Shown here piece after piece: positions 13,841 to 32,327 of a DNA stretch of 32,739 nt (its first letter is position 1; each line of letters starts with the position of its first letter). The translations under genes were made by a program, and so were the position numbers. Origin of the DNA: a virus; the IMG/VR virus record IMGVR_UViG_3300042355_001605, positions 1-32,739 of that record; one strand, written 5' to 3'. The notes below the pieces were generated by a model. The model was not told the origin of the DNA. It saw nothing but the letters and a program-made list of their open reading frames with translations, and did no database searches.

Positions 13841-15088
13841 TCACTTTAAACGTTTAAAGTCGTACCAACACCAGCCAGAGCCTCCCCCACCAACAAAGAA
13901 TCGGGGGTTTAAGTTCTTGAAGCTGTAGCGAACATTGCGACCGTCAACGGCACCGGTTGAAGCCCAGCCGCCGTTCACCAGGTCCTGTTCACCGTAGGGG
14001 TCTTGGACTAGCCAATAATCCCGGCCATAACCAGTAATAACCACAAAGTGGCCGCCACCAGAAGGGTCAGAAACAGTTCCATGATGAAGAATGCCGGCAA
14101 CAACAGGGAGGCCCGAGTCAATTTGTTTTTTAACGTCATCCGAGTCTGCAGTTTGAGTGAACTTAGCGGATACACCTAACTCTGCCAAGGCTTTGAAGTG
14201 GGGGTTGCGATAAATTGTGTCTCCGTACTTATTAACGATCTTCAAGTAGTCAGTATCGTCGTTAATACCGGGTGTATCTAAGTACTTCAGACACATTGCA
14301 ATGCTGCTGGTTTGACACTGGCGCCAACCTTCGGGGCCATTATCCTTTTGGTGGAAGTACGGGAAGTTGCGGAGATAGCGAAGGTCGCCGTCGACTGCGT
14401 AAGGATGGATCGTTGTTTTGGTGACAAGGCCATCCCAGTGGTCATCGTAGATCCACCACTTGCCGAGCCCGAAGCCCAGCTCCACGTAGCTGTGCTTGTC
14501 TTTTCGGTCAATAACTAAGCAATTCCGGATTGTTCTACCTTTATAGATATTGGCTTTTTCATCACGGCCTAGCTCGACGGAAGGAACAAGTCGTTTTTTT
14601 AGCCAAGTATTAAATTTAGAGGTGATATCAATTAAGCCAACTTTTACTTTTGGGGCTTCGCTACAAAACAATTCAACCTCTGCGGAACGGCGACGGCTTA
14701 AACCTTCGAGAACTTTTCCGTCACCTTTATTCCACCTCGGCAGCTCCTCGGCAGCGACAATATTAGGGTTTTCTCCATTATTAAGACGTTTAACTAACGT
14801 TGAACCCTTGAAAGCCTGGGTTCCGACGTTAAAACAGAAAGAGACAAGTGCATCAAATTGATTTTGATTTAAATCAATGGTGACGTAATTTAATACTGCC
14901 TGCTCGAATTTAATGAGATCTTGCTTGAGAAGTGCGTCAGCTTCTTTCTCGGTGATTTTTGTTCCAGCAAGCACATTTCCGGTGTGACCGTAGCCAATGG
15001 TAAGTACACCGACAGGACAGAGGTAGCTGGTGAGGCTTAGTCCCTCGAAAGATTTAATTAATTTGATGCCAGTGGGCGAAATTTTCAC
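13841..15088 (-). CDS. Three-part endolysin: GH24 lysozyme, SH3-like linker, C39-like peptidase
   Basis: The 415-aa protein begins with a lysozyme showing the full E-8-C-5-T catalytic pattern: E15 (KSFEG), C24 and T30 in TIGYGHTG. Residues about 150-225 look like an SH3b-type wall-binding module (LGKWWIYDDHWDG). Residues about 240-370 form a papain-fold C39-like domain, with C258 (RQCQTSSIAMC), H347 (GGHFVVITGYG) and D363 (VQDPYG) as a likely triad. The enzyme would cut the glycan and probably a peptide bond. It is preceded by a putative holin. No signal peptide, so release depends on the holin. Confidence 0.9.
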   Translation of the reverse strand: MKISPTGIKLIKSFEGLSLTSYLCPVGVLTIGYGHTGNVLAGTKITEKEADALLKQDLIKFEQAVLNYVTIDLNQNQFDALVSFCFNVGTQAFKGSTLVKRLNNGENPNIVAAEELPRWNKGDGKVLEGLSRRRSAEVELFCSEAPKVKVGLIDITSKFNTWLKKRLVPSVELGRDEKANIYKGRTIRNCLVIDRKDKHSYVELGFGLGKWWIYDDHWDGLVTKTTIHPYAVDGDLRYLRNFPYFHQKDNGPEGWRQCQTSSIAMCLKYLDTPGINDDTDYLKIVNKYGDTIYRNPHFKALAELGVSAKFTQTADSDDVKKQIDSGLPVVAGILHHGTVSDPSGGGHFVVITGYGRDYWLVQDPYGEQDLVNGGWASTGAVDGRNVRYSFKNLNPRFFVGGGGSGWCWYDFKRLK

Positions 15089-20612: not shown

Positions 20613-21077
20613 TCACGCCAATAAGATCGGTAATTCTAACTGGACGGCTAACTCCGCTGAATTCACAGCCTCACCAACACGAGTTACATAATGACCAGCA
20701 GTTGATGGAGGTGTAGAAGTGATTGCACCCGCGCTGGCAGCCGATAAATAGTAAATACCCCCTGGGGACAATCCAGAATTAGGCGCCACCCCAACGATTA
20801 AAACGCGAACTAATTCACCAGACAGCTTCGTTGTCTGGGCAAAACCGACAACATTCGCCTTGTCAAATGTATCATTTGCAATTGCCCGTCCTACCTTGCC
20901 ATCACTAGAGCGAGCATAAAGAGCTTCGCCTTGATTAACATTTTCAAATGCCAAAGCCTGAAATCCGGCAACTGAATACACAGGTTTACCGGTCATAGTT
21001 GATTTGAGGTCAATCAGTGCCTCAGTTAGTCCTTGGTTATTGGGAGCGTATGGCTCGTAATTACTAACGCCAGGCAT
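20613..21077 (-). CDS. Tandem-duplicated tail/fibre protein B, 154 aa
   Basis: The product shares its C-terminal 80 residues with the gene just upstream (21077-21604): both have a VGFA start, VxVLIVGV/VLVAGI, GGIYYLSAASAGAIT against GDVYFLSTTAGAITT, then YVTRVGE. The N-terminus keeps an NYEPYAPNNQGLTEALIDL-like repeat that the neighbour also has. It starts in the stop codon of that gene (1-nt overlap). A beta-rich virion or fibre accessory is likely. Confidence 0.6.
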   Translation of the reverse strand: MPGVSNYEPYAPNNQGLTEALIDLKSTMTGKPVYSVAGFQALAFENVNQGEALYARSSDGKVGRAIANDTFDKANVVGFAQTTKLSGELVRVLIVGVAPNSGLSPGGIYYLSAASAGAITSTPPSTAGHYVTRVGEAVNSAELAVQLELPILLA

Positions 21078-21604
21078 TAGGACAACTGGATAGGTGGTTC
21101 TAATTGAATACTAAAGTCGGTAGAGGTGGCACCTTCTCCAACACGGGTAACATATTGACCAGCAACAGAGGGCGCTGTCGTTGTAATTGCTCCAGCTGTA
21201 GTACTTAGGAAATAAACATCCCCAGGATCAACAACAAAAGGCATTGTTTTGATGCCAGCAACCAAAACCTTGACGGTTTCTCCGGTATTTGCTGCAGCAT
21301 CTGCAAAGCCCACAACTAAAGCTTCGTCGACTGTACCGTCAGCTTGGGCCAGTCCAACTTTCCCGTCACTAATGCGCATGTAAAGAGCGGCACCATCAGT
21401 AACTGCCTCAAACGTAACCGCATCAAAACCCACACGAGAGGGGGCAAAAACAGGAAAACCTTCTTTAAGGTCAATAATCGCGTCAACCAAGCCCCGATAA
21501 TTTGGCTCATACGGTCGACGAGTCATCGTGAACTCGTTGGCCGTCATCAGATCAACCAAAACAGCAATCGCGCCCTCTATATTTGGTTCGTATCCGGTTG
21601 ACAT
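21077..21604 (-). CDS. Tandem-duplicated tail/fibre protein A, 175 aa
   Basis: This is the first of the paralogous pair. The N-terminal 50 residues carry two copies of the short motif YEPNxxGxxxxxxDL (YEPNIEGAIAVLVDLM and YEPNYRGLVDAIIDLK), so a third copy lies in the neighbour. The C-terminal domain (about 100 aa) is the shared beta module. It is preceded by an AAGG-type ribosome site. It starts a minus-strand run of about 6 kb of fibre genes. Confidence 0.65.
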   Translation of the reverse strand: MSTGYEPNIEGAIAVLVDLMTANEFTMTRRPYEPNYRGLVDAIIDLKEGFPVFAPSRVGFDAVTFEAVTDGAALYMRISDGKVGLAQADGTVDEALVVGFADAAANTGETVKVLVAGIKTMPFVVDPGDVYFLSTTAGAITTTAPSVAGQYVTRVGEGATSTDFSIQLEPPIQLS

Positions 21605-26109: not shown

Positions 26110-26412
26110 TTAAATGACGACGTCTAAATTACGCAATTCTGCACCACCAATATAAGGTGCAGGTAGTGCAGGTGGATTACCGGTACTACCTATTAAGTTT
26201 AAATTAAATGCATCCCCAGCGAGCCGAGATTTCCGCTCACGCGGTAATCGGGCACCGACTCCCAAATATCCGCCCCCACCTCCAGGTAGAGTTGGATCTG
26301 CAGCCATAAAACCCTGGAAGTCGCCCTGGTTGGTGGCTAGGGGGGCTTCAGACGGACGCTTGTTTTGGGATATACCGAGCATATAGCCCATTCGAGTACC
26401 AGCTTTATCCAT
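26110..26412 (-). CDS. Hypothetical glycine-rich protein, 100 aa
   Basis: The ATG at 26412 (MDKAGTRMGYMLGISQNKR) is decided by a strong GAGGAGG ribosome site at 26420-26426. The longer frame to 26433 lacks one. A Gly run (LPGGGGGYLGVGARLPRER) precedes a basic patch and a hydrophobic end (PPALPAPYIGGAELRNLD). It overlaps the upstream gene by 8 nt. Confidence 0.6.
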   Translation of the reverse strand: MDKAGTRMGYMLGISQNKRPSEAPLATNQGDFQGFMAADPTLPGGGGGYLGVGARLPRERKSRLAGDAFNLNLIGSTGNPPALPAPYIGGAELRNLDVVI

Positions 26413-26623
26413 TTTGTTTCCTCCTCGATGCAAGTTCTACTGCTCGCCGAGCTTTTTTTGCTCGTTCAGTATTTGAAACAAATTGCTTACCCTCTCGGGA
26501 TTCTCGTTGTTTTTTCTCGTCTGTACGGCGCCGTTCTTCTGGCGTTAACTTTGACCACGCAGATTCTGGAAGGTAACGCTCGGTACCTTTTTTACCAGGT
26601 TCAATAGCCTTGTCGACAGCCAT
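26405..26623 (-). CDS. Basic protein resembling the C-terminal half of a cyanophage/giant-virus family
   Basis: It starts at ATG 26623, inside the stop of the upstream gene (TAATG). The sequence ERYLPESAWSKLTPEERRR and GKQFVSNTERAKKARRA is what I remember as the C-terminal half of a conserved basic protein family (I believe DUF5872). Members carry an N-terminal GGKPGQWSARKAQL part on the same chain. Here that part is encoded separately at 27424-27654. The function of the family is not known to me. Confidence 0.6.
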   Translation of the reverse strand: MAVDKAIEPGKKGTERYLPESAWSKLTPEERRRTDEKKQRESREGKQFVSNTERAKKARRAVELASRRKQNG

Positions 26624-27042
26624 TACTCTTGGATTGATCCGCCATAAAGCCATGCATCACAAGTGCGTGACCCTGCACATTTAAATTTGAACAACTGACA
26701 ATAGCCAAGGTTTGCGCGTTCTTGTACATCCCAAGGATCTGCCGCTTCTTTCTCATTGATTCCCTGAATGATGCAATCAATAACTTTTGGAGATTGATCA
26801 AATGCAGCGCAATTACAACAGCGTGCAGACATGACAGTGTTTACATCACTGTTCCACATCTCCGCCTTCTTCTCCCAAAAGCCGGGATCCGGAACATCTG
26901 GGTTTAAGGGACCATAGGCAAAGTTTTTAATAGTCCAATTTCGATTTTTGATGTTCTCTTCAATATCAGTCGTTGCACGAGGACAGGATTCACCTACCTC
27001 GGTAACAGTTTTATTAAGCAGAATCTTTACTTTATTTTCCAT
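26623..27042 (-). CDS. Cysteine-rich protein, HiPIP-like pattern, 139 aa
   Basis: The C-terminal half has cysteines spaced as ARCCNCAAFD, then VIDCIIQG, then GYCQLFKFKCAGSRTCDAW. This matches the CxxCxxF ... GxCxxF ... CxAW pattern of high-potential iron-sulfur proteins. The N-terminal half is unremarkable. Similar proteins are common in marine cyanophages as I recall, usually without known function. It might bind an Fe-S cluster or zinc in the virion. It is coupled on both sides by stop-start overlaps. Confidence 0.6.
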   Translation of the reverse strand: MENKVKILLNKTVTEVGESCPRATTDIEENIKNRNWTIKNFAYGPLNPDVPDPGFWEKKAEMWNSDVNTVMSARCCNCAAFDQSPKVIDCIIQGINEKEAADPWDVQERANLGYCQLFKFKCAGSRTCDAWLYGGSIQE

Positions 27043-27389
27043 TACGCAGCCGCCACGCTGAATGTCACTACTGCAGCCGTGCCGCCAGACTCACTAACAA
27101 AGCGAGGACGAACATATTTAACAGGCCGATCGCCCACACTGTACACAGTGGTCCCATTACTGGAAATAGTTTGATCTGCAATGATCGGTGCGTAGTTGGT
27201 CCCATCAATGCTGCCCTCCAAGCGAACCACAACATTAGTGTTAATCGTGGCCACCGTTACAATCATGGTGTAGGCAGTTGTGCTACACAGGTCATTAACA
27301 CCGACTTCAATAGTGGTACCAAGCCCAGCCGCCGTTAATGCGGGACTATTGCTAAAAATTGTATCCTGAAAATAATAACCTGCCGCCAT
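27042..27389 (-). CDS. Small beta-rich virion protein, paralogue of 11013-11357
   Basis: The 115-aa product (MAAGYYFQDTIFSNSPALT) aligns along its whole length with the 114-aa protein at 11013-11357, including NVVVRLEGSIDGTNY and a VVTFSVAAA end. It probably forms a repeated surface or tip subunit. Its stop overlaps the start of the Cys-rich gene by 1 nt. Confidence 0.65.
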   Translation of the reverse strand: MAAGYYFQDTIFSNSPALTAAGLGTTIEVGVNDLCSTTAYTMIVTVATINTNVVVRLEGSIDGTNYAPIIADQTISSNGTTVYSVGDRPVKYVRPRFVSESGGTAAVVTFSVAAA

Positions 27390-27654: not shown

Positions 27655-27935
27655 CAGAACTGATTTTGGACTGGCTTTTTATTAAGAATAACAGGGGGAA
27701 TGCTGTCGCTATAACTGCGATCAACTTCTCGCATATATGACGGGTTATTCATTTGATAACGTGGATCATTTACACCGTTGTATCCAACAACATAGCCGCA
27801 ACGCTTCTCAACTTCCTGGCGGCTAGGATTAAATGGATCACTAAAACCAGCCGTGGTCAACTGGTGATCCTGGTACATATTTTGATATGTCACAGGAAAA
27901 CTCGGATAATAACCAGGGACAGCAGCAAACCTCAT
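27654..27935 (-). CDS. Hypothetical protein, 93 aa
   Basis: Tyr/Pro/Asn-rich (MRFAAVPGYYPSFPVTYQN; RYQMNNPSYMREVDRSYSD). It has one Cys and ends PPVILNKKPVQNQF. Coupled by 1-nt overlaps to genes on both sides. Probably a loop-rich virion component; no family is recognised. Confidence 0.55.
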   Translation of the reverse strand: MRFAAVPGYYPSFPVTYQNMYQDHQLTTAGFSDPFNPSRQEVEKRCGYVVGYNGVNDPRYQMNNPSYMREVDRSYSDSIPPVILNKKPVQNQF

Positions 27936-28570
27936 CAGGTTAGGTAGTTAGGGGTTTGAGCAAAAGCCTGAGTCAGCATTGAGACCGGGTCGATCATTGA
28001 GCGAACTTCTGGGGCTTCGGCAGCCAAAGATTGTTGAAGGTAGGAACTTAAGAAACTTTTTGGGGTTAATTCTTTATTGCGTCCGCCAATAACAATGTAG
28101 GTGTCAGCGGGAGCAGCTGTTGGCTGCATTGCTGGTGCCGCTTCCGTTGGTTTACCACCTTTTGTGTGAAGCAAGCGGATCTCATAAGGAGTACCCTGCG
28201 GATCCGTAGTCTTAATCGTCCCGTACCCCTTACCAGGTGTAAAGGAGCCGGGGCCCTCCCAGGCTAAGGGAGTGCCTCCGGCAATACCATAATCCTGCCC
28301 CATGTGCTGGGTAGAGGCCCCTTTGGTGGGGGCTTTACGTGGACCAAATGGAGATGTAATGGTGTAACTTGGAGACCATTTGCCGGCTTCTTCTTGCCAA
28401 AGAGATTTACGCTCTTTTCCAACTTTTAGCCGAGTTAACAGAGATCGGATTGTACCTGGATCTACATATTTACCGTCTTTTAAAACGCGAACATCTAGAT
28501 GGGGACCAGTCGTTGGAAAAACATCCTGACCAGCTGGAGTTACATATCCGACATCTGTTAACGAAGCCAT
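27935..28570 (-). CDS. M23-like peptidase with rearranged motif order, 211 aa
   Basis: Residues 72-107 carry the usual first half of an M23/LytM domain: ITSPFGPRKAPTKGAST, H89-x3-D93 (HMGQDYG) and GGTPLAWEGPG. A later H135 (EIRLLHTKGG) matches the 'YAHL' histidine. The final HxH motif of the family is missing at the end. Instead a TGPHLDVRVLKDGKYVDP segment sits near the N-terminus (residues 21-38), so the order looks circularly permuted and HLH has become HLD. It may cleave peptidoglycan peptides. The last 55 residues resemble those of the transglycosylase. Confidence 0.6.
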   Translation of the reverse strand: MASLTDVGYVTPAGQDVFPTTGPHLDVRVLKDGKYVDPGTIRSLLTRLKVGKERKSLWQEEAGKWSPSYTITSPFGPRKAPTKGASTQHMGQDYGIAGGTPLAWEGPGSFTPGKGYGTIKTTDPQGTPYEIRLLHTKGGKPTEAAPAMQPTAAPADTYIVIGGRNKELTPKSFLSSYLQQSLAAEAPEVRSMIDPVSMLTQAFAQTPNYLT

Positions 28571-28575
28571 ACTAA

Positions 28576-29223
28576 TTAACCCTCAATATATTTTGGTGTC
28601 TGCGAAAATGCAGCGGTTAACATTGCAGTCGGATCAATGGAAGATTTGATCTGTGGTGATCTGCCTGACGCCATGTTCAAGATGTAATCATCTAAATAAG
28701 ATGCTGGATCTCGTTGTGGCTCCTCATCAGCAAAAATAAGGTAGGTCCGACCACGGGCAGCCGTTTCTTGTGGTTTAGTAGGCTGACCACCCTGTATCGC
28801 CTCAGTAAAACTGAAATTATCAGGACCAATAATTTTTTGGACGTAGCGATTAGTCTCTGCGTATCGCTTACTGGCTTCTACTGCACCAGGACCAGCGTTA
28901 TAGGCTCGAAGACCTTTCTCGTACGCTTGACGTAATTTGACTGGATCCGTTTCTTGACCAGGGGCTTTACCGCCTAAATAGGTCTTGATGTACCCTGCCA
29001 TATTCTTGGCAGCAGCATCCAATGCGGAAACCGGGTCGTCAGGATTAACACCCCAACCCTTGGCGGTTGTGGGCATAATCTGAGCGATGCCACGAGCACC
29101 GGCAGACGATACAGCTTTTGGATTAAATCCAGATTCTGCTTGAATCTGGCGCTCAAAAACTTGAGGAAGAAGCCCATACTTTTGGGCTTTTTGTCTTGCT
29201 ATCTCGCGAAAGTCGGGAGGCAT
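28576..29223 (-). CDS. SLT-type lytic transglycosylase, virion-associated
   Basis: From M at 29223 the protein is 215 aa; the open frame extends to 29382 (268 aa). The domain has the Glu of QAESGFNP (E83 in the long form), GARGIAQIMPTT and YNAGPGAVEASKRYAETN, as in SLT transglycosylases. These cut glycan strands, commonly when the phage ejects DNA. The short start begins 23 nt after the stop of the upstream gene. The longer start would overlap that gene by 137 nt and add a signal-peptide-like segment. The C-terminal tail is shared with the M23-like protein. Confidence 0.8.
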   Translation of the reverse strand: MPPDFREIARQKAQKYGLLPQVFERQIQAESGFNPKAVSSAGARGIAQIMPTTAKGWGVNPDDPVSALDAAAKNMAGYIKTYLGGKAPGQETDPVKLRQAYEKGLRAYNAGPGAVEASKRYAETNRYVQKIIGPDNFSFTEAIQGGQPTKPQETAARGRTYLIFADEEPQRDPASYLDDYILNMASGRSPQIKSSIDPTAMLTAAFSQTPKYIEG

Positions 29224-29245: not shown

Positions 29246-29725
29246 TTAGCGGAAATCGTTTGAAAGCATAAGGCGAGTACCGACAGCAACGTCGGCAGGG
29301 CCAGGGAGCGCTTGAATGAATTCAGCGCCTTCTCGGTTGAACCGATACCGAGCTTGCTCGGGATTTCGGTAATTGGGGACATACAGATGTAGGGCTAATC
29401 GATCCGTCTCGTATAAATAAATCGCCGTCCAAGTTTTCAGCGTGTCTCTGAAATCAGAGGTCGCAATCGTACGATCAACGTCACCGGCTATGCTCTCAAT
29501 ACGACTACGTGGGACGGTATTATTATTCACGCTGCCAGTCATGTCAGTGCGCTTTTCAGCCTCGTCGCACCGACCGATCTGTTCGACAATTTTCGAATAC
29601 CAGAACGAATCTTGGATGTTGTTGACAGCTTCCTCTAGACGCGCTTGGTCACCAGCCGGGACAGACGTCAGGTTATAACCTAGGTGCCAGCGGACTTTAG
29701 ACTTAAGGAAGGTATCGAGTTGCAT
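29246..29725 (-). CDS. Hypothetical neck/connector-region protein, 159 aa
   Basis: MQLDTFLKSKVRWHLGYNL followed by VPAGDQARLEEAVNNIQDS is a pattern (VRxHLGY near the start) I recall from head-tail adaptors of marine phages. The end (PEQARYRFNREGAEFIQAL and PADVAVGTRLMLSNDFR) looks conserved. No enzyme motif. Its position between the HhH gene and the transglycosylase fits a connector role. It is separated from the HhH gene by a 71-bp gap with a hairpin. Confidence 0.55.
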   Translation of the reverse strand: MQLDTFLKSKVRWHLGYNLTSVPAGDQARLEEAVNNIQDSFWYSKIVEQIGRCDEAEKRTDMTGSVNNNTVPRSRIESIAGDVDRTIATSDFRDTLKTWTAIYLYETDRLALHLYVPNYRNPEQARYRFNREGAEFIQALPGPADVAVGTRLMLSNDFR

Positions 29726-31181: not shown

Positions 31182-32327
31182 TCACTCAGTAATGGTAAAG
31201 GCACAGGTCACGAAGTCCTTGTTCAGGTTCGCGAAACCGGCGTACAGCTGCCAAATCAGGATGATGAAGCGGCTGAAGTCATCGTTGTTGTTGATCAGAA
31301 CTTGAGCGTTCGGACCACCGATGCCCACACCCACAGCCTGAGGACCGAAGAACAGGGCAGGAGGAGTGTCGTGAGAAACAGAGCCGTCGCCGTCGTTGAT
31401 GTCAACGGTGATGGACTTGCTGGGGAAGTTGGTGGATTCGAAGAACCGCACACCTTCAAACACAAAGCCGGAAGGCATCACAGGTTCGCCAGCCACGAAC
31501 TGAGCTTGGCCAAACTGACCACCACCATAGATGGCGGCGTTAGGAGCCATGGCGCCCATCAGCGGGTTGGGAACGCCAGCGCCAGGATAGCGAGCCACTT
31601 CACGGAAGCCCTGGTCAGCACGCAGGTCCTTCATGAAGGAAGGATCAGCGATACAACGGTAGTAGCCGTCGGCGAACACAGGCACGTTGCGCTTGCGGAG
31701 GCTCTTCACAACGTTCAGAAGGTCGGTCTTAACGTTGAACTTGAAGCGCTCGGAAGCGTATTCGGTGGCGGTATAGGTAGCCAGAGTGGTCGAACCAGTC
31801 TTGGCGTGGTTGTTCGGATAGTAGTAACCACCCTGGGTGTCGGAGGACTGACCACGGGATTCGGCCTTGAACAGTTCGTCCAGGAACACGCGGTCGCGCC
31901 AGCGGCGGTAGTCATCCAGCAGGGTCAGCGAACCGATGGACTGGTGGAACATGTTGAGGTTCCCGGTGTCCAGCAGCAGACGCTGAGCGGTCATCAGAGT
32001 CTCGCGAGCAATCTTGAAGGTGCTCGGGAGGTTGGCATTGTTCGGGTCAGCAGGACCGGTGTACTCACGGAGAGACACCAGCACCTTGTCCTTCACGATG
32101 GACCGGCTGTTAGCAGTACCGATGGTTTGATCCTGGGTACGCTCACGGTTGGTCTTCGTACCGGGGTTACCCCAGAAGCGGTAACGATCCAGCTGAACGG
32201 TCTGACCAGGCTGTTTGGTGAAGTCGTGGACGACCACAGGCTCGCAAGCCATTTCCACGATATAAGCCGGATGGGGGCGGTACAGCTCCGCACCCAACAG
32301 CTTGGGAAAGTCGTTATCAATAAACAT
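31182..32327 (-). CDS. Major capsid protein, N4gp56-like
   Basis: The 381-aa product (MFIDNDFPKLLGAELYRPH) has features of the N4gp56-type capsid family: an N-terminal arm, VQLDRYRFWGNPGTK, a long helix region, then VFADGYYRCIADPSFMKDL, RADQGFREVARYPGAG and GFVFEGVRFFESTNFPS. These 'ADPxxxxDLRADxxF' and 'GVRFxEST' blocks recur in that family. Length is typical. It has a structured 5' leader, an extended -10-type promoter upstream and shares the terminator after the 272-aa gene, consistent with very high late expression. Family is judged by eye. Confidence 0.75.
   Translation of the reverse strand: MFIDNDFPKLLGAELYRPHPAYIVEMACEPVVVHDFTKQPGQTVQLDRYRFWGNPGTKTNRERTQDQTIGTANSRSIVKDKVLVSLREYTGPADPNNANLPSTFKIARETLMTAQRLLLDTGNLNMFHQSIGSLTLLDDYRRWRDRVFLDELFKAESRGQSSDTQGGYYYPNNHAKTGSTTLATYTATEYASERFKFNVKTDLLNVVKSLRKRNVPVFADGYYRCIADPSFMKDLRADQGFREVARYPGAGVPNPLMGAMAPNAAIYGGGQFGQAQFVAGEPVMPSGFVFEGVRFFESTNFPSKSITVDINDGDGSVSHDTPPALFFGPQAVGVGIGGPNAQVLINNNDDFSRFIILIWQLYAGFANLNKDFVTCAFTITE

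Follow-up and report, generated by a model that had tools for sequence, protein, structure and literature searches.

A C-terminal tail common to two adjacent wall-degrading enzymes of an S-EIV1-like cyanophage, a candidate docking tag for interchangeable hydrolases

Introduction

The internal proteins of T-even phages are highly diverse, and the only part that they conserve is the capsid targeting sequence (CTS), which serves encapsidation (review, PMC3012670). The tail described here is likewise a short common tag on otherwise unrelated phage cargo domains; the T4 CTS is N-terminal, acts in the prohead core and is cut off by the prohead protease, whereas our tag is C-terminal, about 57 residues long and carried by wall-degrading enzymes, with no sequence relation shown between the two. 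Because position, sequence and cargo differ, we do not class the tag as a T4 CTS, which it resembles in principle. T7 gp16-type internal virion proteins represent virion-borne transglycosylases used at entry, and two of their families match the SLT domain of our locus (phrog_342, E = 1.5e-23; phrog_669, E = 1.3e-24); in them the domain lies within very large virion or tape-measure proteins, whereas the enzyme studied here is small and free and carries the shared tail. Encapsulin cargo-loading peptides are short C-terminal peptides on different enzymes that direct them to one shell; our tag is longer and has two predicted helices, and no encapsulin was seen. In Synechococcus phage S-EIV1, an M23-family protein (AHV82231) and a Phage_lysozyme2 protein (AHV82234) follow the same concept of a pair with a common tail, and the M23-like domain is 48% identical to ours, but the tail is of a different type, the partner enzyme differs and the genes lie apart. 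A search limited to open full texts found no description of the tag reported here.

Results

Locus and gene layout

The window, that is, the whole stretch of DNA analysed (32,739 nucleotides; IMG/VR record IMGVR_UViG_3300042355_001605), comes from a virus related to S-EIV1. The features needed below are as follows.

13841-15088, minus strand: separate endolysin with Phage_lysozyme and C39-like peptidase domains (domain matches)
26110-26433, minus strand: 107-residue protein, function unknown; its divergence tracks that of the tails
27935-28570, minus strand: M23-like endopeptidase, 211 residues, catalytic part residues 1-143
27938-28108, minus strand: C-terminal tail of the M23-like protein, shared with the transglycosylase, 57 residues, ADTYIVI...QTPNYLT (from tail alignment, shuffles and relatives)
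28109-28141, minus strand: linker of the M23-like protein, low pLDDT, place of swap junctions in relatives
28576-29223, minus strand: SLT-type lytic transglycosylase (Pfam SLT), 215 residues, catalytic part residues 1-143, model m350b00edbeb1
28579-28752, minus strand: C-terminal tail of the transglycosylase, shared with the M23-like protein, 58 residues, GRTYLIF...QTPKYIEG
28753-28794, minus strand: Q/P-rich linker of the transglycosylase, predicted disordered, joining point of domain swaps
29246-29725, minus strand: anchor gene, 159 residues, phrog_29158, function unknown, conserved neighbour upstream of the enzyme pair
31182-32327, minus strand: major head protein (phrog_1357, E = 6e-17)

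The enzyme pair lies downstream of the anchor gene and of the major head protein gene, whose proximity places the pair in the structural gene block. The true start of the transglycosylase is the ATG at 29223, since relatives conserve an ATG or GTG here, 20-40 nt after the anchor gene ends; the span 27935-29223 given in the earlier note is therefore correct up to its right end. A 268-residue ORF from 29382 was rejected as an overlap artefact with the anchor gene, and so was an N-terminal extension of the transglycosylase with a signal-like stretch, which overlaps the same gene. The transglycosylase frame does remain open for 53 codons into the anchor gene (29246-29382), where it encodes a signal-peptide-like stretch, and it is open in most relatives too; this is likely an artefact. 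Elsewhere in the window, two adjacent minus-strand ORFs (20613-21077 and 21077-21604) both match phrog_4368 and have the look of a tandem duplication.

Catalytic domains

The transglycosylase scored 67.8 bits against PF01464 (SLT), above the cut-off of 21.3 (E = 8e-19), and its catalytic-glutamate motif, ESGFNP (E30 S31 G32 F33 N34 P35), is invariant in 16 relatives. The M23-like protein had no Pfam match at E = 1 and thus stays below the cut-off of PF01551, which its relative L043 approached (28.3 bits, cut-off 28.7). The M23 zinc motif HxxxD is present as H89-x3-D93 and, like H24-L-D26, is invariant in 22 relatives. The HxH motif of the C-terminal part of M23 domains is absent from the window protein; the matching segment is N-terminal and reads H24-L-D26, its L043 version being PHAHLYV. 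Within residues 20-135 of the protein (27938-28570, minus strand), the segment GPHLHF...NGKPVNP, usually C-terminal, comes first, with its second histidine replaced by aspartate (HLD). When solved structures were searched with a profile of the M23-like protein (HMMER), 3slu was matched in two segments whose order was exchanged, and the domain is apparently circularly permuted, as judged from these alignments. Residues 43-144 of the model superposed on lysostaphin (Z 4.1, rmsd 2.6, 75 aligned residues) and on ShyA (Z 3.7), while Foldseek alone returned no significant solved structure. In L043 (884-2050), an extra N-terminal domain starting FFFGDSIAVGYGG, SGNH/GDSL-hydrolase-like by eye, is fused to the M23-like part, in which HxH is intact.

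The two proteins share a tail

The earlier note had observed that two unrelated catalytic domains share about 55 residues of tail, and alignment confirmed this: over the last 57-58 residues of the two proteins, 54 residues aligned without gaps, 20 of them identical (37%) and 33 similar (BLASTP E = 7e-16). When the last 45 residues were compared with shuffled tails, the pair reached a z of 19, which rejects chance or low complexity as the source of the likeness. Simple readthrough or annotation error was also rejected, the genes being separate with separate stops. With the M23-like protein as query, the only matches in the window were the protein itself and the transglycosylase tail (residues 136-210, E = 3.7e-13); the catalytic domains are unrelated. 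The two tails of the window keep the motif although their DNA differs: same-codon use between them was 43% against 38% expected, little more than chance would give, and the duplication is therefore old.

Recurrence among relatives

Using the anchor gene to locate the enzyme locus in other phages, we scanned viral contigs separately for the two enzymes and the anchor gene and obtained well over 100 loci, most of them metagenomic fragments; the anchor gene itself is encoded in at least 574 contigs. Both proteins were tailed in about 20 close relatives in the first two scans. A narrower tail alignment (A6) gave 18 loci; in the inspected new ones (L295, L296 and L301) the tail again belonged to this gene pair in its usual surroundings. 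Many marine relatives among L099-L125 do not have the enzyme pair in this slot, and in phages L108-L112 (including the L109/L111 type) the tail is on a single enzyme. A 16-sequence tail profile searched against 20 records matched strongly only the two enzymes, in near-complete genomes (records of 78,024 and 77,651 bases), and no convincing third tailed protein appeared in the profile-searched records or in an all-against-all comparison of C-termini in the 78-kb genome G004, whose remaining significant pairs were unrelated families such as fibre-like repeats. Against 50,697 phage records, tblastn with the tail gave only chance matches (E of 5 or worse). The wider recurrence sought for the tail thus holds inside the S-EIV1-like group and fails elsewhere in those records. 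HNH-type endonuclease genes (CxxC...DHNH) were seen just downstream of the slot-2 gene, which encodes the M23-like protein in the window, in L012, L016, L076, L077 and L188; these genes might promote local recombination.

The tail is carried by different enzymes

By the earlier note's own standard, its reading would fall if the tail occurred on one kind of enzyme only, with homology running on into the catalytic domain, or did not recur more widely; this is clearly not the case, the tail being present on at least five kinds of enzyme in S-EIV1-like cyanophage contigs. Slot 1, occupied by the SLT enzyme in the window, holds another SLT variant in L062, an SLT_3/C-type-lysozyme-like domain in L013 (Pfam SLT_3, E = 5e-12), an endolysin-like muramidase in L045 (phrog_90, E = 4e-30), a weakly endolysin-like protein in L056 (phrog_12490, E = 4e-6) and Phage_lysozyme2 in S-EIV1 (E = 2e-36). 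In slot 2 the M23-like domain alternates with a peptidase that bears HxxGxAxD and HVHLA motifs and may be called M15/VanY-like by motif alone, no profile matching at the thresholds used. Catalytic domains are swapped over near-identical tails in slot 1 (L109/L111, L069/L077, L035/L087) and in slot 2 (L040/L063, L087/L013); at these swaps the DNA identity of 85-92% starts only in the linker, about 200-235 nt ahead of the stop codon. In L178 both tails are of the window type and the enzymes differ in both slots (SLT_3-type and M15-like). The tail is a discrete mobile module, separate from the catalytic domains and under purifying selection.

The two tails change together

Tail pairs from the same genome scored 76.5; with partners permuted the score was 51.4, and none of 100,000 permutations reached the observed value (29 non-redundant genomes, kinship ignored). 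Since this test ignores kinship, distances were also compared with correction for the anchor gene: distances among transglycosylase (LT) tails and among M23-like (M) tails correlated at r = 0.73, and still at a partial r of 0.64 once anchor-gene distances were removed (P = 0.001), whereas r was 0.14 between the two catalytic domains and 0.28-0.34 between each tail and its own catalytic domain. The two enzyme genes of L145 end in 129 identical nt, and those of L144 are 90% identical over 148 nt; this is recent gene conversion, with L145 as the one clear case. Tail dN/dS was 0.04-0.22 where estimable, and 0.04-0.14 for the LT tails of relatives. When co-variation with the tails was screened for a partner, the 107-residue protein gave r = 0.75 (partial 0.65, n = 33) and the gene at 27042-27389 a partial r of 0.68 on only 14 genomes; some correlation with the tails is seen for nearly all neighbours, so the 107-residue protein is not specific and is a weak candidate partner.

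Predicted structure

The AlphaFold model of the transglycosylase has a fair catalytic domain, a disordered linker and short helices at residues 173-185 and 198-207; that of the M23-like protein exceeds a pLDDT of 85 up to residue 140, followed by a disordered linker (148-169) and helices at 170-182 and 195-204. In both models the tail has a pLDDT of about 40-56 and shows no confident domain beyond linker and two short helices, and profile searches found no Pfam, PHROG or solved-structure match for it. The predicted structure fits a flexible tag that takes up its fold when it meets a partner, although low confidence does not prove disorder.

The S-EIV1 clade

The window-type tail profile had no match in S-EIV1, whose two proteins both carry an ALNP-type tail (z 7.5). 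In this clade other genes lie between the two enzyme genes. Sharing of a tail, of another type than in the window, has statistical support in S-EIV1, L166, L172, L183, L190 and L192, the similarity is marginal or weak in L043, L163 and L167, and 6 of 15 pairs had no significant tail similarity (P ≥ 0.15). The pairs without detectable likeness mean either that tails diverge quickly or that not every member of the clade follows the rule.

Discussion

The earlier note had read the tail as a docking tag that places both enzymes at one site in the virion. Its mobility as a module, its presence on several kinds of enzyme and its matching within genomes support the docking part, and the virion as the site is what we infer. 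Judged from the sequence pattern, the two tailed enzymes probably have a common target, and this target is most likely the virion, because the pair is placed within the structural block, while the phage also encodes a distinct endolysin with Phage_lysozyme and C39 domains. On balance we favour, with some confidence, a C-terminal docking tag that brings two hydrolases to a common receptor on the assembling virion.

The strongest rival holds that the tails bind each other, forming a hetero-complex through their homologous helices that couples glycan and peptide cutting with no third receptor. Homotypic pairing predicts just the within-genome matching and gene conversion that we observed, and short amphipathic helices are indeed predicted, but the tail of L108-L112 sits on one enzyme, with M23/M15 undetected in the 67.7-kb record G011 of an L109/L111-type phage (which may be incomplete), and the enzyme genes of the S-EIV1 clade are not adjacent, so that we consider such pairing unlikely. 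Binding domains common to different hydrolases are frequent in phage endolysins, and the tail might similarly bind the cell wall or envelope and so keep both enzymes attached to the host wall; it could even serve at lysis. Although the tails vary among phages as host-range determinants do, this reading is improbable given a tail that matches no known family or structure, low-confidence short helices rather than a globular fold, and genes that sit in the structural block of a phage with its own endolysin. That the tails are a by-product of recombination, their adjacent likeness homogenised by gene conversion with no specific shared function, would suit the identical tract of L145 and the HNH genes adjoining the pair in several relatives, but is very hard to reconcile with strong purifying selection, with window tails that keep their motif in differing DNA and with S-EIV1 tails that match despite separated genes.

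Under the favoured docking-tag reading, the tag would consist of a flexible linker rich in Q and P, a short TYxI segment resembling a strand, and a pair of short amphipathic helices, and would recruit a glycan-cutting and a peptide-cutting hydrolase to one receptor on the assembling virion. Carried along to the next host, both enzymes would open its wall where the phage enters. Recombination at the linker attaches the enzyme domains to the tag as exchangeable cargo, and the tags would evolve together, partly via gene conversion between the two genes, because both must fit one receptor. The fuller proposition, that in S-EIV1-like cyanophages the virion is loaded with interchangeable modules for cutting glycans and peptides through a lineage-specific C-terminal plug, which gene conversion and selection keep matched on the two enzymes, seems to us an even call.

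The natural swaps make the docking idea testable without design work. If the tag does load virions, it would offer a natural address label by which proteins could be carried in a cyanophage group of wide distribution, a handle on the partner protein in virions of poorly described architecture, and a clear natural case of modular exchange among phage entry enzymes. If such a plug and socket exist, these phages could exchange one wall-cutting tool for another and leave the virion as it is.
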